A DNA stretch of 64,000 bases, taken from NCBI GenBank assembly GCA_950295325.1, contig OX485803.1:1676001-1740000 (forward strand), written 5' to 3'. The translations under genes were made by a program, and so were the position numbers. Shown piece after piece: positions 50,104 to 61,726 of the stretch. This stretch comes from Polytrichum commune. Taxonomy: Eukaryota; Streptophyta; Polytrichopsida; Polytrichales; Polytrichaceae. The notes beneath the pieces were generated by a model that saw nothing but the letters and a program-made list of their open reading frames with translations, was not told where the DNA came from and did not search any database. Every line of letters begins with the position of its first letter. Position 1 is the stretch's first letter.

Positions 50104-50526
50104 TATGGAATACAATATGCACAGCAGCTTGGCGTTGGTTGCAGCTATCGACGTTGCCGCAGCCTCGTGCTCGCGATTGCAACTCGGCGCTCACTGCAGC
50201 CTGGCGCCTGCAAACCCTAAACCGGCCCGTCCTCGTTGACGGGCGGCTACCGTGGTAACCAGTTGCCAAGCATCGCCCAGGCAGCCAAACCTACTCGAGG
50301 AAAATGCCAGGGTTATGACGTCCCCTCCCCAAACAGACGGGGACACATAGAAAATCGCATCAAACATACAAACTCATGATCTGAGATCCATTTCAAATCG
50401 CATCACACACAAAAACTCATGATGTGAGTGTCATTTTACATCTCATCACACACACAAACTCATGAGCAAATCAACCTCAAGGGCCAAATATGTGATAACT
50501 CATCGCATCACACACAAATACTCACC
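50104..50526 (+). repeat. left outer arm of the foldback-like element
   Basis: Matches 60788-61726 in inverse orientation once the MITE there is removed. It includes a GC-rich outer part ('cctaaaccggcccgtcctcg' near 50215) and, at about 50345-50520, three to four diverged units of about 46 bp built on 'cgcatcacacacaaaaactcatgat'-type sequence. It holds the empty site (50305-50312, TGCCAGGG) of the MITE inserted in the opposite arm. Confidence 0.85.
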
Positions 50527-50966
50527 AAGTGGAACGAGCCACGGCGGTAACAAGCCATGGAGGATCCACTCAGTCGAGTGGATCCTCGAGTGGAACATGG
50601 CGAGGATCCACTCGACCGAGGGGAACGAGCCACGGCGGTAACCAGCCGTGGAGTATCCACTCGGTCGAGTGGATCCTTGCCATGTTCCACTCGAGGATCC
50701 ACTCGACCGAGTGGATCCTTGCCGTGTTCCACTCGAGGATCCACTCGACCGAGTGGAATGAGCCACGGAGATCACCAGCCATGAAGGATCCACTCGGTCG
50801 AGTGGATCCTCATCGTGTTCCACTCAATCGAGTGGAACGAGCCACGGAGGTAACCAGCCGTGGAGGATCCACTCGGTCAGGTGGATCCTCGTCGTGTTCC
50901 ACCGGACCGAGTGGAACGAGCCACGGCGGTAACCAGCCGTTGAGAATCCACTCGACTGAGTGGATC
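50527..50966 (+). repeat. 79-bp palindrome-rich minisatellite, left segment
   Basis: Tandem units built from GGATCCACTCGGTCGAGTGG, a GTTCCACTCGACCGAGTGGAA palindrome with minor variation, and GCCACGGCGGTAACCAGCCG. Each unit contains two palindromes around CTCGRYCGAG. Most frames are open through the array, so the apparent open frames here (up to 146 codons) are not evidence of genes. Confidence 0.9.
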
Positions 50967-51154
50967 TGAGAAAACTAGAACTGAGACCGGAGGCAAGTGA
51001 GACAGAAACATTGTCTGGAACACAACTGTTCAATTGTGAGTGAGAAACTCACTGGTATAAGTACATGAGAAAATAACCTAGAGCTGAAGAGAAACCCTAA
51101 AGTAAAAGGTAAAACACTAATGGTAACTGGGATGTGGGCATAAACGGTTCAACA
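50967..51154 (-). repeat. 3' LTR of copia 1
   Basis: 188 bp, with TG...CA ends on the element strand and 4 differences from the 5' LTR at 56395-56582. It lies about 80 bp upstream of the antisense frame at 51235, so its plus strand could hold that frame's promoter. Confidence 0.95.
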
Positions 51155-51161
51155 CCCCCTC
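51155..51161 (-). other. polypurine tract of copia 1
   Basis: GAGGGGG on the element strand abuts the 3' LTR start TGTTG, as expected for the plus-strand primer. Confidence 0.85.
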
Positions 51162-51234
51162 GTGCACACAAGCCCACTAGTTGAAATTTGAAGCAGAGGG
51201 GAGTCAAGCAAGCTGCTCGTCACGTGTGTCGGTG

Positions 51235-51972
51235 ATGGATTTGAGGCTGCAAGAGGTCACTTGGGTCCGCCTACTGTCGCTCCTGGTATGGACAATTTTG
51301 ATGATGTTGAAGCGGGGACTGTCTCAATTGATCGATGTAATCGAGAGGCGAGTCTTCGTGGAGAGCAATCAGACCAAAAAGGAGGAGAAGAGTCAGAGAG
51401 GAGAGGGAGAGAAGGTCACGCTATTGCCCCCTCTGAGCGACCAATTAGTGCTTTCGAAAGTCTGGCCGCTTCTGCATAAGCAGGTGAATGTGTCTCTATT
51501 GTGGAGACTTTGGAGGGTCAACAAGGCCTGGAAGAGAAGTGTGAGTAACAGTCTTGAGTGGGCAGCCCTTGAGATGGTTAGGGTCGACTCTCCCGGTTAC
51601 TTAAGATATCTTCGAGAGCGCCGCGAGCGTCGACCATCCTTGCTGGAGCGCGTCGAGAGTGAGAGGAGGTTGATTGCGGTGCTGCTTGCCGAGAATGTGG
51701 TCGAAAGTTTGGCACAGTCGGAGTCGATTGTGCGACGAGAGACCAGTGGCGAAAGAGGTTCGGTAGGAGCATGGAGAGGAGATTCTCGAACGGAGGAGGT
51801 GGAGAGTCCTTTTAATGTTGGGTACACAGGACTGATTGGTTTCGAGGAATTTAGAAGTGAGAGAGATGACGGGATTTGTTGGTGTGAGGAATTAGATTTC
51901 GAAGCAAACGCTTCTTCGTCCGAGAGTTTAGTTAGGGTGTATTACCCTCGTCATACAGTGAGAGGTGGATGA
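51235..51972 (+). CDS. antisense F-box-like protein encoded within copia 1
   Basis: A 245-residue frame on the strand opposite to the retrotransposon, between pol and the 3' LTR, overlapping the pol tail by 22 bases end to end. Residues about 9-27 are a hydrophobic helix (VRLLSLLVWTILMML), followed by a charged linker and residues about 64-104 resembling an F-box (LPPLSDQLVLSKVWPLL, then LLWRLWRVNKAWKRSV). The C-terminal third is acidic and ends near YYPRH. ATG 51235 is chosen because the related frame in copia 2 starts at the same MDLRL. An F-box would suggest binding to SKP1/SCF ubiquitin ligases; that is inference from a short motif. Expression is unproven. The alternative is a chance open frame, which the related copy makes unlikely. 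Confidence 0.7.
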   Translation: MDLRLQEVTWVRLLSLLVWTILMMLKRGLSQLIDVIERRVFVESNQTKKEEKSQRGEGEKVTLLPPLSDQLVLSKVWPLLHKQVNVSLLWRLWRVNKAWKRSVSNSLEWAALEMVRVDSPGYLRYLRERRERRPSLLERVESERRLIAVLLAENVVESLAQSESIVRRETSGERGSVGAWRGDSRTEEVESPFNVGYTGLIGFEEFRSERDDGICWCEELDFEANASSSESLVRVYYPRHTVRGG

Positions 51973-54900
51973 CTAAGATGGCTGAGAAGGTGAAATTTCT
52001 CTCGGCATTCTTCAAATTTGGTCCTGCCAAGAGATTTCGTTAGGAGATCTGCAGGTTGCTCTCGGGAAGAAATGAATTCAACCCTGATAGAGTTGTTTTC
52101 AATCTTTTGACGAGTAAAATGGTAATCAATTTCAAAATGTTTGAACTTCTCATGAAAGACAGGATTGTAGCTAAGTTTAATGCTACTCTGATTGTCACAA
52201 AAGAGGTAGGTAGGCTTGTCATCCAAAAATTTGAGCTCTTTTAGTAATCTTCGAATCCAGATTGCTTCACATGAGCATTGAGCAAGTGCTCTATACTCCG
52301 ATTCGCAAGAGGAATGGGATGTACTGGATTGTTTCTTTGAATTCCAAGAAATCGGGGAATTTCCTAGAAAGAAAATGTAGGCCCCAACTGAGATCCTGTC
52401 GTCGATATCCTGACCGTAGTCAGCATTAGTGTACCCATGTAGGCGATTTTCCTCCCCTTGTTTAAAAAACAAGCCTAAGCCTGGGTACCTGCATATGTAT
52501 CTCAGAATGTGTTTTGCGGCTTGAAGATGGGCCTCTTGAGGATTCTGCATGAACCGGCTGACAACACTGACTGCGTGGGTGATGTCCGGACGAGTTTTGG
52601 TCAAGAAGAGAAGTTTTCCCACTAGCATGCGGTAGAGAGTTGCGTCGACTAGAGGTGTAGAAGAATCTTTTGAGAGAGTCATACCTTCAGGAAGAGGAGT
52701 GTGAGATGGGGAGCACTGCTCCATGTTGAATTGTTGGAGGATACTTAATGCGTATTCCGTCTGGTGCATGTGGAGACCGGAGAAGTTGCGGTCAAACTGC
52801 ACTCCGAGATATCGTTGGATTGGTCCAATATCATGAGTTTTGAAATTTTGGTGTAGATGTCGCTTAAGTTGAGTGATGTGTCGAATGTTGCTTCCTGTGA
52901 TGAGAATGTCGTCTACGTAGACTAAAAGTGCGATGATGTCAGAACCAAAATGTGCAAAGTAAAGATTGGGGTCGGACTTGGATTGAGTGAGGTGCCATTC
53001 TAGGAGGGCAGTGTGTAGACGAGCGTACCATGCTCTAGGACTTTGTCGGAGTCCATAGAGGGATTTGTGCAGCTTGCTGACGAGGTGTTCAGCTCCAGGG
53101 ATGATGAAGCCCGGTGGTTGGTGCATATACACGTCTTCGCGAAGAATGCCATTTAAAAATGCAGTGAGGACGTCCAATTGGTGAATGGGCCAATTGAGGT
53201 GTACTGCAATGGCTATTAGTATGCGAATTGTCTCCCAGCGGACAGCGGTAGCAAATGTGTCGAGGAAGTCAATTCCATCATGTTGTTCAAAGCCACGAGC
53301 TACCAGTCTCGCTTTGTAGCGTGTGGAGTTGCCATTAGCACCAGGTTTGATTTTGTAAACCCACCGAGAGGAAATTGCGCGCTTGTCCGCAGGGAGGGGA
53401 ACCAACGTCCAGGTGTTGTTGCTGTTGATGAAGTCGATTTCTGTTTGCATGGCCGCCAACCAGTGAGGATTGGTATGAGTTTGTTTGAAGGTGAGGTGAT
53501 CAGTTGTAACTTCAGGGGAAAAATCTTGAAATTCAATATGCGCAGCAAAATCCAGTAAATGGCGTGGAAAACGCCGTATGCGTTCGGATCGCCTAGGGAA
53601 GTCACTCGCTGGAGGGGGTTGAGAAATTGAGGGAGGGTTGGTGTTGGAAGTCGACTCAGAGAGGTCGGTGTCGGAAGGTGACGTCGAGATTTGAATCGGT
53701 TGTGGGTTGACTAACGTGGGTGGACTGGGAGGCTCATTCGAGACTTCAGGAGTGGATGGAGGCGGTTGATTTCCCAGCAATACTCTGGATTCTTCAAGTC
53801 GAGTGGGTGCTGGAATATAGACAGCATTGGAGGGTTCTATGGGTGTAGGGTTGAGGTTTGAATTGAGAGAATTCTCTTCATCAATGAAGATGTCTCTCGA
53901 AATAAAAACCTTGTTAGTTGAAGGGCGATAACATCTATACGCTTTAGCTGATTCATCAAAGCTAAGGAGTATGCATTGTTCGGAACGTGGGTCAAGTTTT
54001 GACTTAGAAGGTTTGGGAATATGCGAGAAAGCAGGAGACCCAAAAATACGGAGATGAGTTATGGAGGGTTTCAAACCTGAGAAAAGTTCGTTAGGTGTCA
54101 TGTCTGGATGACACTTTGTTGATCGAAGGTTTAAGATGTCTCCTGCCGCTTTGACAGCTTCACCCCAGAGATGGCCAGGAAGCGATTTGTCTAGGAGGAG
54201 ACATCTTGTGATGTCAAGTAAGGAGCGATTTCGCCTCTCAGCCACACCGTTCCGTTGTGGCGTATAAGGCGGGATGAGTTCGCGAGAGATGCCTTTGGTG
54301 GAGCAAAAAACATGGAAGGCTTTTGACGTGTACTCTCCACCATTGTCAGTTCGAAGTGTTTGTACACGCTTTCCTGTAGAGTTTTCGATGAAGTGGACGA
54401 ATTGCTGGAATTTAGCCAGCACATGGTTTTTGTGTGAGATAAAATAAATCCAAATTTTCTTGGAAAAATCATCAACAAAGGTAACGAAAAACTTAGCACC
54501 ACCTGTGGATTGAACTCGGAAGGGGCCACAGACGTCCGAGTGGATTAGCTCGAGAATTTTTGAAGCGTGATGAGTTGTTTCTTTCGGCATCTTCGATCTG
54601 GCTCGTTTGCCCAATTGACAGCTGCCACAAGTGTGCTTTGTAAACTGTAATGGAGGCAACCCTTTTACAGCTGCGGAATTGATCATTCGCTGTAACCCTC
54701 GTGTGTGAAAGTGGCCAAGGCGTTTATGCCAGAGGGCTGCTTTAGACAAAAGGCGAAGGGAATTGATTTCAGGCCCTTAGGTTGGTGAGACCCCTTTGAG
54801 TCTGTATAAGCCTTTGGTAGCTTCCCTTGGAGCAAATGCTTCAATCGCGAGGGAGAAGTTGTTAATGACAAAACAACCCTCTGATCTGAATATGAGTGTT

Positions 54901-56330
54901 TTATTCTGATCCGTCAAGGATCCGACACTGAGAAGGTTTTTGGTAATGCCAAGGGTATACAAAACAGAAGAGATGTTTATTTTTCCTGATAGAAATCGTA
55001 CATCGATATTTCCGACGCCGGTCACAGTATGATTCTGTCCATCTGTTGATCTTACTTGAGATCCACTGGTTTGTTGCAGAGAAGAAAAAACTGAGGGGTC
55101 ACCGGACACATGGTGAGTGGCCCCTGAATCTAAGTACCAAGAACTAGTCTGTTGTGGTGTTTCTACTAGGTTGAGCTCAACTAGACACGCGTCTATGACT
55201 TGATCAACAGTTTCAAAACTGTCTGGATCTTGATCTTGCTTGAAAGGGTCAGGTTCCTCCAAGTGATGTACCTGTCCACTCAGAGTGCGGTTGCGCCGCT
55301 CCAGAAGCTTGTTTTCGTAATCCTTCATGCGGTCAAGAATAGATCTGAGGTCACATTCGCGTTCGAAATGGCCATCTAGTCCGCAGAAGTTGCAACAGTC
55401 GGTTCTCGGTTTATCAGGCCCCCTGGATTTGAATCTTGGCTGGTACGTCATTTGCTGGTTCCGACCTTGTGTCGCAGTAGGGTGAGTGCCGACTTGTTGA
55501 TGTTGACTTGCGTACCTAAGCGCGTGTTGTCCTCCCGAATCTGTGAAGTTGGAAGATCGCGGGTTCGATGATCTTCCTAAGTCGGTGTAGCGCCTGTGTG
55601 CGTGAGTGTGTCTGGCGTTCGGTGTCTAACGGAAGTTGTTGAACCGTTGGTTCGACTGTGGACGCCAGTTTTGTAGGAAGAGAGCTTCACCATCGTCCTT
55701 CTGTTGTTCTTCCATCTTTAACGCTGTCTCTTCCGAAATCAATTTTGCTTCAAGTTGTTCATATGTAGGCAGAGTCTGAGCGGAGATCTGCATTCTCTTA
55801 AAAATTTCGTACTCCTTGGGAAGGTGTTTGAGTGTCTAATACACTATAATGTCCTCAGGGATATTTACCTCTACCTCTTCTAAGAGGTTTGCGACTTCCT
55901 TTACCTCAGTGAGGTGTACATCCATAGAGATTGACTCAGTTTTTCTAAGAGCAAAAAATTTCTCTATGAGCATTACACGTCTTGGACCGCTGTCAGATTC
56001 GTATCTGGCCTTCAAACCTGTCCAACATTCGTAAGGGTCGTCGTAGCGTCGAAGAAGCTTGAGCACGTTGTTCTTCACATTGCTGTTGATGATACTCATG
56101 ACTTGCTGGCGCGCCATCTTCTCTTCTTGGCTCATGATTTTTGGTGGCGGCGTGATGCAGTAACGGAATCGCCCGTCTTTCTGTAGCAAATTTTTCATTC
56201 TGTAGGCCCAGGTCCCGAAGTTGTTGCCGCCCTCCAAGTGATAGGTTTCGGGGAGTCCACTATCACCTGTCATTACAAAATGCCTATTGTCTTGTACGCT
56301 AATCTCAGATTCTATCTCGGTTGCAGACAT
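51951..56330 (-). pseudogene. copia 1 gag-pol polyprotein with three in-frame stops
   Basis: One reading frame of 1460 codons from ATG 56330, broken only by stops at 55836-55838, 55626-55628 and 54777-54779; no frameshift. Order: Gag (residues about 1-300), zinc knuckle C-x2-C-x4-H-x4-C (about 313-326), protease DSGA (about 401), GAG-pre-integrase LWHKRLGH, integrase with HSDVCGP, LRTDNGGEY and the later Glu, reverse transcriptase with YVDD (52910-52921), and RNase H. The RNase H motif reads TNAD where copia elements usually have D-A-D, possibly a lost catalytic Asp. All three stops could come from C-to-T changes on the coding strand, as expected for deaminated methylcytosine. It makes and integrates the element's DNA in a virus-like particle; this copy is non-autonomous. 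Confidence 0.95.
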
Positions 56331-56382
56331 CCTCGAGAGAAACGGTGGATCTACTCTTCTATGTTGTCGTTCTACATAGCCT

Positions 56383-56394
56383 GCTCTGATACCA
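56383..56394 (-). other. primer-binding site of copia 1
   Basis: TGGTATCAGAGC on the element strand, immediately after the 5' LTR, complementary to the 3' end of plant initiator tRNA-Met, the usual copia primer. Confidence 0.95.
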
Positions 56395-56582
56395 TGAGAA
56401 AACTAGAACTGAGACCGGAGGCAAGTGAGACAGAAACACTGTCTGGAACACAACTGTTCGATTGTGAGTGAGAAGCTCACTGGTATACGTACATGAGAAA
56501 ATAACCTAGAGCTGAAGAGAAACCCTAAAGTAAAAGGTAAAACACTAATGGTAACTGGGATGTGGGCATAAACGGTTCAACA
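56395..56582 (-). repeat. 5' LTR of copia 1
   Basis: 188 bp, near-identical to 50967-51154. It is followed directly by the GGATC target duplication and the 79-bp array. Confidence 0.95.
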
Positions 56583-57170
56583 GGATCCACTCGACCGAGT
56601 GGAATGAGCCACGGCGATCACCAGCCATGAAGGATCCACTCGGTCGAGTGGATCCTCATCGTGTTCCACTCAACCGAGTGGAACGAGCCACGGAGGTAAC
56701 CAGCCGTGGAGGATCCACTCGGTCGGGTGGATCCTCGCCGTGTTCCACCGGACCGAGTGGAATGAGCCACGGCGGCAACCAGCCATGAAGGATCCATTTG
56801 GTCGAGGGGATCCTCATCGTGTTCCACTGGAGGATCCGCTCGACCGAGTGGAACGACCCACGGCGGTAATCAGCCATGGAGGATCCACTCGGTCGAGTGG
56901 ATCCTTGCCGTGTTCCACTCGACTGAGTGGAATGAGCCACAGCGGTAACCAACTGTGGAGGATCCACTCGGTCGAGTGGATCCTTGCCGTGTTCCACTTG
57001 ACCGAGTGGAACGACCCACGGCGGTAACCAGCCGTGGAGGATCCACTTGGTCAAGTGGATCCTCGTCGTGTTCCACTCGACCGAGTGGAACGACCCACGG
57101 CGGTAACCAATCGTGGAGGATCCACTAGGTCGAGTGGATCCTCGTCGTGTTCCTCTCAACCGAGTTTGGC
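56583..57170 (+). repeat. 79-bp palindrome-rich minisatellite, middle segment
   Basis: About seven units continuing the array that copia 1 interrupted. Consecutive 79-bp units start with GGATCC at about 56879 and 56958. Units differ at scattered positions, mostly at CG dinucleotides (CG/CA/TG), which suggests methylation decay. Confidence 0.9.
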
Positions 57171-57435
57171 GCTCGCTGCTGCAACCTTATATGTTGTCAT
57201 GTCATGATGTCAGTCTCGCACTCCAAAGTCCGTCAAAGTCAGCTCCCCACAAAAACAATACTCCAGCTCTCACCTTCCGCCAAGAACTGTTACAATGTTC
57301 TAGCATCCGCACTTGCCACCCTTAAGTTCATGCTGATCTTTAGTGGTCTAAATCACCGCTTTAAACTACTAACTCTAAGCTCTACACATCCTGGATGGGC
57401 TCCGCAACCGTACTGTCAACCAAATACAGGCACCA

Positions 57436-59569
57436 CCATCTATTACTCACCTTCGAATTTTTGGGTCTCCTGTTTTTGCTCACATCCCAAAACCCTCTAG
57501 GACCAAATTAGACCCCCGCTCCAAAAAATGCATTCTTCTTAGCTTTGATGAAGCAGCTAAAGCTTACAAGTGCTATCGCCCCTCCACCAGAAAGATTTTT
57601 GTTTCCAAGGATATTGTCATTGACGAGGACAGTCTTTTCACTCCGGCACAGACACCGGAAACTCAATCTACTCTCCCAGCATATAATACACCTGCACCAA
57701 CTCGGATTGGAGAATCCCAGACTCTTCTCAACCTGCAGCCACAAAACTCTACTCCTGACCCACAGGACAGCCACCAAGTCCTCAAGCATCTACTCCCTTG
57801 CCAGACATACCGTAATTATCCTCACCTACTCTCAGCGGTGCTGATACTTCTTCACCTAGCCCCGAGGAAATTGCTTCCCTGCCCTCCTCACCAATTCTAG
57901 TAACCAATCCCCCTCGGCGGTCCGACCGCATCAAACGCTTCCCTCGACATCTCTACGACTTTTGCGGCTCACGTCGAGCTTGACCGTCCTGCCTCTATCC
58001 CTGAACTACAACCTGAACAACTCATTTTTCAACAAGTCCATACTAACCCTCACTAGAAAGCTGCCATGCAGGAAGAAATTGATTCTATATGCAGCAATAA
58101 TACTTGGACCTTGGTCGAACTTCCTCCTGACAAGAAAATAATCTCTTCCCGTTGGGTCTACAAGGTGAAGACAGGTAGCAACGGCAGTCTTCCTCGATAT
58201 AAAGCAAGATTAGTTGCTCGAGGTTTTGTACAGAAGGATGACATCGATTTTCTTGATACTTTTGCCCCTGTGGTTCGCTGGGAGACTATCCGAATTCTCA
58301 TTGCTATTGCTATTCACCTCAATTGGCCCATCCACCAGCTTGATGTTCTAACTGCCTTTCTGAATGGCATTCTAGAGGAGGACGTTTACATGCATCAGCC
58401 CCTTGGCTTCATCCAGAGAGGAGTTGAACACCTCGTGTGTAAACCTCACAAATCCCTCTACAAACTTCAACAAAGCCCACGCGCCTGGTATGCACGCCTT
58501 CATGCTGCCCTTCTTGCCTGGCGACTTATCCAATCCCACTCTGACCCTAACCTTTACTTCGCTCACGTAGGTAATGACACAATTGCTCTCTAGTCTATGT
58601 CGATGACATCCTTGTCACAGGAAGCAACCTCCGTCTCATCACCCAGCTCAATAATCACTTTCACTGCACATTCAAGACCAATGACCTCGGCCCCATTCAG
58701 AGGTACCTCGGTGTTCAATTCGACCGAGATTCTACTGGTCTTCGCATGCATCAGACGGAGTATGCTCTCAGCATTCTCCATCTCTTCAACATTGAGCACT
58801 GCACTCCATCCCACACCCCTCTTCCCGAGGGCCTCACCCTGTCCAAGGATTCTGCTACACCGCCTGTGAATGCCACCATCTACAGGATGCTTGTAGGTAA
58901 GCTATTGTTTCTCACTAAAAGTCGACCTGACATCACTCATGCTGTCAGTATAGTTAGCAGGTTCATGCAAAATCCCCAAGAAGCTCATTTACAAGCGGCC
59001 AAGCATGTCTTACGCTATGTGCGCCGTTACCTAGACATAGGCTTGTTTTTCAAACAAGGGGAGGAGAATCGTCTTCATGGGTACACCGACGCAGACTATG
59101 GCCAGGATATTGATGATAGAATTTTTGTAGGAGCATACATATTCTTCCTTGGAAATTCTCCTGTTTCCTGGAATTCTAAGAACCAGTCTAGTACTTCTAG
59201 GTCATCTTGTGAATCGGAATACATAGCTCTTGCTCAATGCTCATGTGAAGCCATATGGATTAGAAGACTGTTGGAAGAACTTAAAATCCTAGACAACAAG
59301 CCTACCCATCTTTTCTGCGACAACCAAAGCAACATCAAACTCAGTTACAATCCAGTTTTTCATGAAAAATCCAAACACTTTGAGATCGATTACCACTTTA
59401 CTCGTCAAAGGTAGAAAATAACACTATCAAAGTGGAGTTCATTCCATCTCAAGAACAACCGGCCGACCTTCTCACCAAATCGCTCAGGAGAATCAAATTC
59501 GAAGACTGCAGAAGGAAACTTCACCTCCGAAATAGCCTGACTGACTATCGTCAGACTCTCATCAAGTGA
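57436..59569 (+). pseudogene. copia 2 pol fragment (integrase end, RT, RNase H)
   Basis: Starts at the integrase C-terminal block THLRIFGSP, runs through a decayed linker, then reverse transcriptase and RNase H, about 80% identical by eye to copia 1 in the RT core. Lesions: frame loss in the linker (57660-58050), a TAG where copia 1 has the Trp of NPHW (about 58054), a one-base loss just before YVDD (58596-58607), and a frame break at about 59411 near the RNase H end. Copia 2 keeps TDAD in RNase H. It ends with TGA at 59567-59569. It cannot encode a working enzyme. Confidence 0.93.
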
Positions 59570-60276
59570 CGAGGGAAATACGCCCTCATTGAACACCCAG
59601 AGGAAGAAGCACATGCCTCTTCAAACCCTTTTCCCTCATTCTGATCACAGGTACTCTTGCTATAGTTGCGAACATTCCCAGAACAAGGGAATCTTGTCCA
59701 CATACAAGCACGGACGGCATCACCTAAACCCTCAGTCGAACTCCAGTTTCCCTCATCCTTCTCGTAACTATCAGTCTTCAACCGAATCCTTTCAGACTGA
59801 GATGTGTAATCCGCGAGGCGCTCCGACAACAACACTGAAATTGATCTCAACTCATCTTCCACCCGCTCCCGCAACGAAGGACGACGCACACAACGATCCT
59901 CGAGGTATCGAACATAACCTGGAGTGTCGACCCGGACCATCTCCAAGGCTGCCCATTCTAAGGTCATGGCTACGCCCTCCCTCCAGGCACGGTTCACCCT
60001 TCTGAGCCTCCATAAAAGCGATGCATTCACCTTCCGATGGAGAAGGGGCCAAATTCGGGTGAGGACTAATTCGTCGCTCAGAGGGGGCAACAATGTCGTT
60101 GCCTCAACTGTTCTTCCTCGGACTCCCCCACTCAAGGACTGTTCACCTCTATCAAAAACTCTACTCTCAATCGCATCTATCAACTGTGAGATACCCCACT
60201 TCAACATGACCAAGATCATCCAGATCAGCAAAGACAACAACCGCACCCAAGTGATCTCCTTCAATCTCAAGTCCAT
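59551..60276 (-). CDS. antisense F-box-like protein encoded within copia 2
   Basis: A 241-residue frame opposite to the element, overlapping the pol tail by 19 bases, positioned exactly as in copia 1. It starts MDLRLKEITW, has a hydrophobic helix at about 9-27, an F-box-like segment at about 64-103 (LPPLSDELVLTRIWPLL, LLWRLRRVNRAWREGV) and then LEWAALEMVRVD shared with copia 1. Of the first 41 residues, 32 agree with the other protein. The C-terminal third differs but both end near Y(Y/F)PRH. The frame is uninterrupted although the neighbouring pol has several lesions. Function, expression and the F-box call are inference; a chance frame is improbable given the paired conservation of start, length and motifs. 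Confidence 0.7.
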   Translation of the reverse strand: MDLRLKEITWVRLLSLLIWMILVMLKWGISQLIDAIESRVFDRGEQSLSGGVRGRTVEATTLLPPLSDELVLTRIWPLLHRKVNASLLWRLRRVNRAWREGVAMTLEWAALEMVRVDTPGYVRYLEDRCVRRPSLRERVEDELRSISVLLSERLADYTSQSERIRLKTDSYEKDEGNWSSTEGLGDAVRACMWTRFPCSGNVRNYSKSTCDQNEGKGFEEACASSSGCSMRAYFPRHLMRV

Positions 60277-60360: not shown

Positions 60361-60527
60361 TGTTGAAACCATCTGCCCACAAGGATTGTTACCGTAGTTA
60401 GATTTTATTTACTTTAGGGTTTCTTCCAGTAATTAGGTCTAGATCTACGTGTACATATACCTGTGAGTTCCATCTCACCTTCGAACAGTTCAGTTCCAAG
60501 GTAGTGATTTCTACCTTAGTTTCGACA
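60361..60527 (+). repeat. 3' LTR of copia 2
   Basis: 167 bp, begins TGTTGAAACC and ends TTTCGACA. There is no partner 5' LTR in the window. The array resumes directly after it. Confidence 0.8.
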
Positions 60528-60787
60528 TATCCTTCACGGTTGGTTACCGCCGTGGCTCATTCCACTTGGTCAAGTGGATCCTCGAGTGGAACACGGCAAG
60601 GATCCACTCGACCGAGTGGATCCTTCACGGCTGGTTACTGCCGTGGCTCGTTCCACTCGGTCAAGTGGAACACGGCAAGAATCCACTCGACCGAGTGGAT
60701 CCCCACGGCTGGTTACTGCCGTGGCTCGTTCCACTTGACCGAGTGGATCCTCCATAGCTGGTTACCGCCATGGGTCGTTCCACTCGG
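60528..60787 (-). repeat. 79-bp palindrome-rich minisatellite, right (inverted) segment
   Basis: About three units of the same array in inverse orientation, for example CCACGGCTGGTTACTGCCG near 60705, the reverse of GCGGTAACCAGCCG in the left segments. It ends at GTTCCACTCGGTGAG, the mirror of the left boundary. Confidence 0.9.
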
Positions 60788-61726
60788 TGAGTATTTGTGT
60801 GTGATGCGATGAGTTATCACATATTTGGCCCTTGAGGTTGATTTGCTCAATGAGTGTGTGTGATGCGATGTAAAATGCCACTCACATCATGAGTTTTTGT
60901 GTGTGATGCGATTTGAAATGGCACTCACATCATGAGTTTCTATGTGTGATGCGATTTTCTATGTGTCCCCGTCTCTTTGGGGAGGGGACGTCATAACCCC
61001 GGCACACGGGGGGATCACTCCATTGTCAAGTTGAACACCACGTGCAACCAAAAAAATCCTTCTTTTGGTAAGTTGCACCACCAAAATGGGTCAAAATTTT
61101 ATCAATTTTTTTTTCATGAGTAGATATACACAGTACCTATGACATATTTAAAAGTGGTAACTAAATTTGATGATTTTTTTTTCATAAAACATACCGTTTC
61201 TAACTAGAATGACACAGAATTGAACTAAAACAATTACTAGAAAAATAAAGATGACTAAAAATTTCAAACATATATACAAAAGATACTATCAATGGTTATG
61301 TATATGTAGAAAAAATATCATAAATTTTAAAATTATATATGGCATGTAATATAGGGGTAGCAAACTTTGTCCGCACGTGGTGTCAACTTGATAATGAAGT
61401 GACCTCCCCGTGCCCCGGCATTTTCCTTGAGTAGGTTTGGCTGCCCGGACGATGTTTGGCAACTGGTTACCACAGTAGCCGCTCGTCAACGAGGACGGGC
61501 CGGTTTAGGGTTTGCAGGCGCCAAGCTGTAGTGAGCGTCGCAGCGACCGCCGAGCTGTAATTGCAAGCGCGACAGTGCGGCCGCGAGCGCGAGGCTGCGA
61601 CAGCAGCGGTAGCACCAACCAACATGAGGTTGTTGTGCGTATTGTATTCCATACCGGGACCGCTAGGCTGCGGCGACGACGGTAGCGGATGCCAAGGCAA
61701 GGCATCCGTGCATATTGTATTCCATA
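60788..61726 (-). repeat. right outer arm of the foldback-like element
   Basis: Inverse of 50104-50526, interrupted by the MITE at 61005-61412. The distal end is longer than in the left arm because the terminal segment is repeated: TATGGAATACAATACGCAC (inverted) near 61655 and TATGGAATACAATATGCAC at the outer end, each followed by a GCTACCG...GCAGCC segment. Confidence 0.8.
61005..61412. mobile_element. hAT-like MITE, copy 2, with perfect 8-bp TSD
   Basis: Begins CACGGGGGGATCACTCC, ends with complementary ACCTCCCCGTG, and is flanked by CCCCGGCA on both sides (60997-61004, 61413-61420). The interior is colinear with 15266-15686. The opposite foldback arm keeps the unoccupied site at 50305-50312 (CCCTGGCA on its minus strand) with matching sequence on both sides, which proves the boundaries. 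Confidence 0.93.

Follow-up and report, generated by a model that had tools for sequence, protein, structure and literature searches.

The stretch of moss genome analysed here, 64,000 nucleotides of Polytrichum commune (assembly GCA_950295325.1, contig OX485803.1, positions 1,676,001 to 1,740,000 of the forward strand; hereafter the window), contains two copia retrotransposons that carry an additional gene. In both elements an open reading frame (ORF) lies between pol and the 3′ long terminal repeat (LTR), on the strand opposite to pol and tail-to-tail with it, as the first-pass annotation of this DNA had noted. The two frames, of 245 and 241 codons (Table 1), start with MDLRL and end with YYPRH or YFPRH plus 5 and 4 residues, and their products are identical at 125 of 249 aligned columns (50%; BLASTP, E 4e-72). 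Element 1, a 5,616-bp copy on the minus strand (50967–56582), is complete in outline: its two LTRs, of 188 bp each, are 98% identical and bounded by TG...CA, and it has a primer binding site, a polypurine tract and a 5-bp target-site duplication (GGATC). We take the primer binding site, TGGTATCAGAGC, to fit initiator tRNA-Met. In the pol frame of this element rve (67–164) is followed by RVT_2 (444–686), placing integrase before reverse transcriptase, the Ty1/copia order. In element 1, 80 bp separate the 3′ LTR from the start of the accessory ORF, whose final 22 nt overlap the end of pol. Element 2 is 5′-truncated, and its pol is broken into pieces.

Plastid psaB very probably places the host among the mosses: on a contig of 146,561 bp (C8) with two PsaA/PsaB frames, the psaB piece had its best scores, 1671.8 bits, with chains of 7ksq, 6l35 and 8htu (with 7kux and 7xqp), which are structures from Physcomitrium patens; 9lut followed with 1634, and the other matches among the 60 of 84 shown reached at most 1601. 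The accessory ORF is not confined to the window. A search of the genome (408 Mb, seven contigs of 42–78 Mb) with the accessory protein gave 59 matches (70 of 70 candidates scored), 22 of them full-length, that is, running from residue 1 to residue 239 or beyond. Eighteen of these full-length copies are free of stops and form the copia alignment used below; the four with stops (L002, L003, L008 and L023) and the partial matches were left out. A first exact DNA pattern found 0 matches in the genome. With a query taken from the RNase H side of pol, 150 of 1131 candidates were scored and 151 matches obtained; from these we sampled all 35 listed ones with an identity of 69% or more and six with 42–49%; the other listed matches, of 39–44%, were not checked singly. 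Among the matches listed, 31 of the 35 with at least 69% identity carry the accessory ORF on the opposite strand, at most 469 nt 3′ of pol, and 25 of these ORFs lie 23–36 nt from the end of the pol query. As to the other four, C3:13722411 has an ORF remnant directly adjoining pol (E 5e-5), and at C4:1526380 a remnant, very weak (E 0.088), lies at a distance of 0.6 kb. The remaining two, C4:55876383 and C4:45120929, match just residues 1–147 and 1–128 of the 235-residue query, so the pol end that would adjoin the ORF is missing; in the 3′ stretch of C4:55876383 the best ORF similarity was E 0.12.

No accessory ORF match was found within 20 kb of the six pol matches of 42–49% identity. Likewise, six 2.8-kb regions 3′ of outgroup pol (L048–L053, 43–49% identity; five of the six matches above and one further, with frames of at least 60 codons also read in four) gave nothing better than E 0.33. 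No pol match between 49 and 69% identity occurs among those listed. The presence of the ORF beside 31 of 35 close pol matches and beside none of the six sampled at 42–49% indicates that it marks one clade, and the accessory gene thus belongs to one copia lineage of this moss. The pol and accessory frames overlap by 4–56 nt in all 16 copies examined (the 18 open copies minus L001 and L010). In 21 of 25 loci a pattern search placed an LTR/polypurine-tract junction like that of element 1 upstream of the ORF, at 35–96 nt from its start.

The ORF has been inherited together with pol. In trees of 17 copies (L010, whose pol is truncated, was left out of this comparison) 13 of 14 splits are common to ORF and pol, and no conflicting split has support above 0.9; the simplest explanation is a single acquisition before the sampled copies diverged. 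The ratio of nonsynonymous to synonymous substitution (dN/dS) is not near 1. Summed over the same copies it is 0.19 for the ORF, 0.12 for its residues 1–157 and 0.04 for pol (20 finite pairs of 136), and its median over all 18 copies is 0.17 (58 finite pairs of 153), all approximate values because most pairs are synonymously saturated. ORF dN and pol dN are weakly correlated (Spearman 0.22). Mismatches at first, second and third codon positions amount to 0.37/0.30/0.57 for the whole ORF, 0.33/0.12/0.48 for residues 1–43 and 0.29/0.16/0.57 for residues 62–157, and are nearly flat (0.54/0.58/0.62) for residues 158–236. The five other frames contain 2–24 stops each in all 18 copies. The closest informative pair, L004/L005, has an ORF dN/dS of 0.58 and a pol in which the proportions of nonsynonymous and synonymous differences (pN and pS) are about equal, as expected of recently dead copies. 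In two pairs that are about 99% identical, L014/L016 and L021/L022, the ORF is open in all members, indicating that it moved with recent insertions or duplications.

Since 18 of the 22 full-length copies are open, third positions show an excess of change and dN/dS is well below 1, the frame goes beyond chance. The accessory ORF is a real gene, kept by purifying selection as a protein of about 240–250 residues, which bears out the earlier proposal of a conserved antisense gene. The same data weigh on two other explanations. The functional product could be the antisense RNA and not a protein, acting through double-stranded RNA or transcriptional interference; the antisense position and the overlap with the end of pol would suit such a role, and roles of this kind are discussed for other elements (PMC7264820). 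However, the low dN/dS, the codon-position signature, a frame open in 18 diverged copies and the retention of PRH while its codons change leave RNA as the sole function largely refuted and, in our estimate, very improbable. We regard it as similarly improbable that a host gene was captured once and now drifts passively. Related F-box-like ORFs elsewhere in the genome (see below) make a host origin possible, but purifying selection up to synonymous saturation, retention across the lineage and the open frames of the near-identical pairs speak against drift.

From N to C terminus the protein comprises a hydrophobic helix, a conserved domain in the middle, a linker that evolves fast and a terminal P-R-H motif. 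The 18 copies have in common the MDL start, W10, L13, L16, L17 and W19, followed by TL.PPL.DELVL..IWP..H, S.LWRL..V...W, W.A...V..D..G, RP, V-E and the terminal PRH. The predicted hydrophobic helix, which the first-pass annotation had pointed out, recurs throughout, a 19-residue stretch starting at residues 7–15 reaching a Kyte-Doolittle maximum of 1.58–2.05 in 18 of 18 copies. Such a helix in a product encoded after pol might recall an env-like gene, but the antisense orientation and the lack of a Pfam match (the N-terminal hydrophobic stretch being the one env feature looked for) make this the least probable of the explanations considered.

The identity of the middle domain, which the first-pass annotation had likened to an F-box, is less straightforward. 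Weak matches of low rank led to relatives elsewhere in the genome, ORFs of about 170–240 codons with the core LR..(N/C)K.WK..V..S.E(W/Y).A(L/F). In hhalign comparisons (E-values given are those of single comparisons) the copia profile matched a 10-member relative set (A6) with probability 96 (E 1.4e-9, 0 of 30 shuffles as good), the A4 relatives with probability 87 and an 18-member relative set (A12) with probability 84–90 (0 of 60 shuffles). Judged by these profiles, the copia accessory ORF shares ancestry with the other families of F-box-like ORFs in this genome. As a host reference we used 24 F-box domains that PF12937 identified in the genome, and also the first 8 of them separately. A hand-trimmed pooled core of 16 copia and 9 other sequences matched the 24 domains with probability 82 (E 1e-5, 0 of 60 shuffles), with LP.E.L, V.K.W and the final W aligned, and the first 8 with probability 49 (0 of 100 shuffles). 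A12 alone matched the host F-boxes with probability 48 (0 of 60 shuffles). Among the weak Pfam matches in A6, PF00646 (F-box) was the commonest (5 of 10 members; best E 0.015, below the cut-off).

Several results weigh against an F-box-like accessory protein. Pfam gave an F-box match for 0 of the 18 copia members, and neither Pfam nor PDB yielded an accepted match for the copia family or the pooled core, whether single proteins or profiles served as queries. Two PDB candidates were discarded, a small nuclear ribonucleoprotein at chance level (E 0.25) and Syndapin for one relative family (E 0.56). By itself, the copia core matched the 24 host F-boxes with probability 7.6 (E 0.0046, 1 of 60 shuffles as good) and the first 8 with 3.8 (2 of 100); for the whole copia alignment the corresponding values were 2.1 (3 of 60) and 0.1 (7 of 30). 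A hidden Markov model of the 24 domains gave E 0.037 for L013 and 0.66 or worse for the other copia members shown. Comparison of the copia profile with A5 alone, a relative family represented by five members, gave nothing (29 of 30 shuffles did equally well), and among the weak Pfam matches in A12 K-box was as common as F-box (6 versus 5 of 18). AlphaFold models were poor: mean predicted local distance difference test (pLDDT) was 41 for the model from the two window proteins and 53 for residues 1–181 of the second window protein alone, the latter with a confident helix at 1–30 and low-confidence helices at 68–82, 85–99 and 106–114. Finally, residues 158–236 are near-relaxed (pN/pS 0.73).

These results allow for a conserved accessory protein that is not an F-box at all, a lineage-specific helical product. 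Like the products of other antisense accessory ORFs, for which such roles have been proposed, it could serve, for example, in nuclear import, in the assembly of particles or in attachment to membranes. The lack of a credible Pfam or PDB match for any copia member, the weak direct match to host F-boxes and the strong hydrophobic helix would fit this alternative, as would the nuclear or DNA-binding roles suggested for the products of Grande and Retand (PMC7264820; PMC11963269), and we consider it possible. It is, however, opposed by the homologous families, which when pooled with the copia ORF match host F-boxes in the expected register. The F-box reading is plausible and is supported through related ORF families of the same genome, and not by the copia members alone; to this extent the earlier likeness held, the copia sequences on their own barely matching host F-boxes. 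The middle domain is probably a highly diverged F-box, of a type that recurs in further ORF families of the moss, some of which lie in or next to DNA transposons.

For the antisense accessory genes that plant retrotransposons carry, no function has been established (PMC7264820). The moss ORF resembles the aORF-3R class (Grande gene23, RIRE2, Retand ORF4/TRP28 and PvRetro13), whose members are likewise antisense, lie between pol and the 3′ LTR and occur in most copies of a family (PMC7264820; PMC11963269). For the moss ORF both features were seen, the antisense position between pol and the 3′ LTR and conservation in most copies (the 31 of 35 pol matches listed). It differs from that class in belonging to a Ty1/copia moss lineage with short LTRs and with pol and accessory frames overlapping tail-to-tail, and in matching neither Transposase_28 (0 of 18 copia members) nor, at an accepted level, any other Pfam model, its relatives being F-box-like ORFs. 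The eORF-3′F of SIRE-lineage copia elements, found in 74% of SIRE elements, is also an extra ORF 3′ of pol; in PMC6317226, however, it is sense and very heterogeneous, whereas the moss ORF is antisense and forms a single alignable family. The minimum ORF length in that survey was 250 codons, and 12 of the 18 moss copies are shorter. Because the survey recorded orientation, with ORFs in 582 copia elements, its supplements may include antisense copia cases (PMC6317226). In the open-licence literature, judged by titles and abstract openings, we found no report of an F-box-like antisense ORF in copia.

Our preferred reading, to which we assign a probability of about one half, is that the ORF encodes an accessory protein specific to this lineage and probably serving as a divergent F-box adaptor that acts on a host factor. 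The antisense mRNA would start in or just beyond the 3′ LTR, on its antisense strand; a TATA-like block in the LTR is acceptable on both strands in most aligned copies and hence fits either direction. The hydrophobic helix might hold the protein at a membrane or make a helical contact, and the F-box-like part would contact SKP1 or mimic such a contact. A host factor that restrains the element would thereby be brought to a SKP1–cullin–F-box (SCF) ligase, or the ligase would be blocked, and the fast-evolving region would be the part facing the target. In this way the element might interfere with ubiquitin-dependent defence, as the first-pass annotation suggested. On these separate points, a function as SCF adaptor is a tentative proposal, and an anti-silencing target seems unlikely.

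Two viral proteins offer parallels in the way they work. HIV-1 Vpu, which has an N-terminal membrane helix, is described as an accessory protein that uses an SCF ligase; it recruits beta-TrCP and is itself no F-box, and no homology to the moss ORF is implied. The polerovirus silencing suppressor P0 binds SKP1 and can target AGO1 (PMC6593998). Like the moss product it is small, is encoded by a mobile agent and has an F-box-like motif, a works-like analogy for which no homology is claimed. The SKP1 contact of P0 is reported to stabilise P0 and not to be directly needed for suppression, which weakens this parallel (PMC6593998). An accessory gene under clear selection in a moss copia lineage offers the hypothesis of SKP1 binding, which can be tested. 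Gene targeting is practicable in mosses. If the F-box reading is true, the gene would correspond, on the side of transposons, to the F-box-like silencing suppressors of viruses, and the presence of related ORFs next to CACTA transposases would point to a strategy that recurs.

The F-box-like families of the same genome (L027/L028, L034–L039, L036 and L078–L094) have a core in common with the copia ORF and differ in their surroundings. At L027 and L028 (stretches of 6 kb each) the ORF lies within a few kb of a Transposase_21 (tnp2, CACTA) frame, L028 having in addition a Transposase_24 match just under the cut-off, and at G000:C4:38749867 it lies beside a Transposase_21 gene. L030, on another chromosome, is 98% identical to L027 over 1.5 kb. 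A second family (L034, L035, L037, L038 and L039) belongs to a repeated element whose copies share the end GGGAAACT(C/T)A; L035 and L039, on different chromosomes, share a 2.3-kb stretch at 97% identity, followed downstream by array-like matches offset by 101 bp, and one copy of this family begins inside the tnp2 frame of L027. With L036 as query 126 matches at E 1 or better were obtained, and L026 may be an ordinary host gene. The search for a host donor of the accessory gene, in which L033 was tried, found none. A general adjacency of the wider F-box-like ORFs to CACTA transposases was rejected: just 2 of the 96 places taken lie within 3 kb of scored Transposase_21 matches, a lower bound since 150 of 643 candidates were scored, and we therefore claim the association solely for L027, L028 and C4:38749867. 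A broader, and more doubtful, idea suggested by these sequences is that in mosses transposable elements of both classes (the copia lineage, CACTA and other repeated elements) carry one divergent F-box-like accessory family, which could be a shared toolkit of unrelated selfish elements for plugging into or blocking host SCF ubiquitin ligases; the copia version would be antisense and joined to a membrane-seeking helix. As a separate observation, C4 holds 38 of the 96 F-box-like ORF places, though it makes up 59 of the 408 Mb; it is perhaps a repeat-rich or sex chromosome.

Table 1. Features of the two copia elements in the window (positions count from the first nucleotide of the window)
Feature	Position	Strand	Basis or remark
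Target-site duplication GGATC, left copy, element 1	50962..50966	.	pairs with 56583-56587
Element 1 3′ LTR, 188 bp, TG...CA	50967..51154	-	98% identical to 56395-56582
Element 1 polypurine tract GAGGGGG (minus strand), adjoins 3′ LTR	51155..51161	-	read from sequence
Element 1 antisense accessory ORF, 245 codons	51235..51972	+	ORF list, BLASTP, genome matches, alignment
Conserved hydrophobic N-terminal helix, about residues 3-41, element 1 ORF	51241..51357	+	invariant columns, hydropathy, low-confidence models
F-box-like segment, about residues 62-115, element 1 ORF	51418..51579	+	profile comparisons
Element 1 pol frame (gag_pre-integrs, rve, SH3, RVT_2)	51951..54749	-	ORF list, Pfam
Element 1 upstream polyprotein part (Pol_BBD)	54777..55451	-	ORF list, Pfam
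Element 1 gag (Retrotran_gag_2)	55836..56330	-	ORF list, Pfam
Element 1 primer binding site TGGTATCAGAGC	56383..56394	-	read from sequence
Element 1 5′ LTR, 188 bp	56395..56582	-	LTR self-comparison
Target-site duplication GGATC, right copy, element 1	56583..56587	.	read from sequence
Element 2, 5′-truncated copia; pol pieces 58066-58593 and 58746-59414	57435..59540 (left limit approximate)	+	
Element 2 antisense accessory ORF, 241 codons	59551..60276	-	ORF list, BLASTP, genome matches
F-box-like segment, element 2 ORF	59935..60096	-	placed from family alignment
Element 2 3′ LTR, about 167 bp, polypurine tract before it	60361..60527	+	right boundary from TG...CA and array similarity starting at 60529

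Around both elements lies a 79-bp tandem array of near-perfect palindromes, GGATCCACTCGACCGAGTGGATCC, at 50495–50966, 56583–57180 and 60529–60790; the palindrome pattern gave 52 matches on the two strands with at most 3 mismatches, against 0 expected. The array is flanking DNA and not LTR. A target preference for it was considered and dropped, because of 25 loci just 2, both in the window, lie inside it. Inverted repeats at 50104–50715 and 60561–61653, with pieces 76–84% identical, flank both copia elements from outside; together with the palindromic array between them they resemble an older element with inverted repeats that would later have received the copia insertions.

The pol query also revealed another copia family, in which many frames of 1,363–1,373 codons are open and which forms clusters, about one per chromosome (at approximately C1 33.4, C2 47.3, C3 33.2, C4 35.5, C5 46.6, C6 25.5 and C7 13.6 Mb). 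The clustered family resembles centromeric copia, which is known in Physcomitrium. Within the short 3′ LTRs of the accessory-gene lineage (alignment A10) the inverted pairs AGACAG...CTGTCT and GGAAC...GTTC recur, and perhaps form an RNA hairpin.

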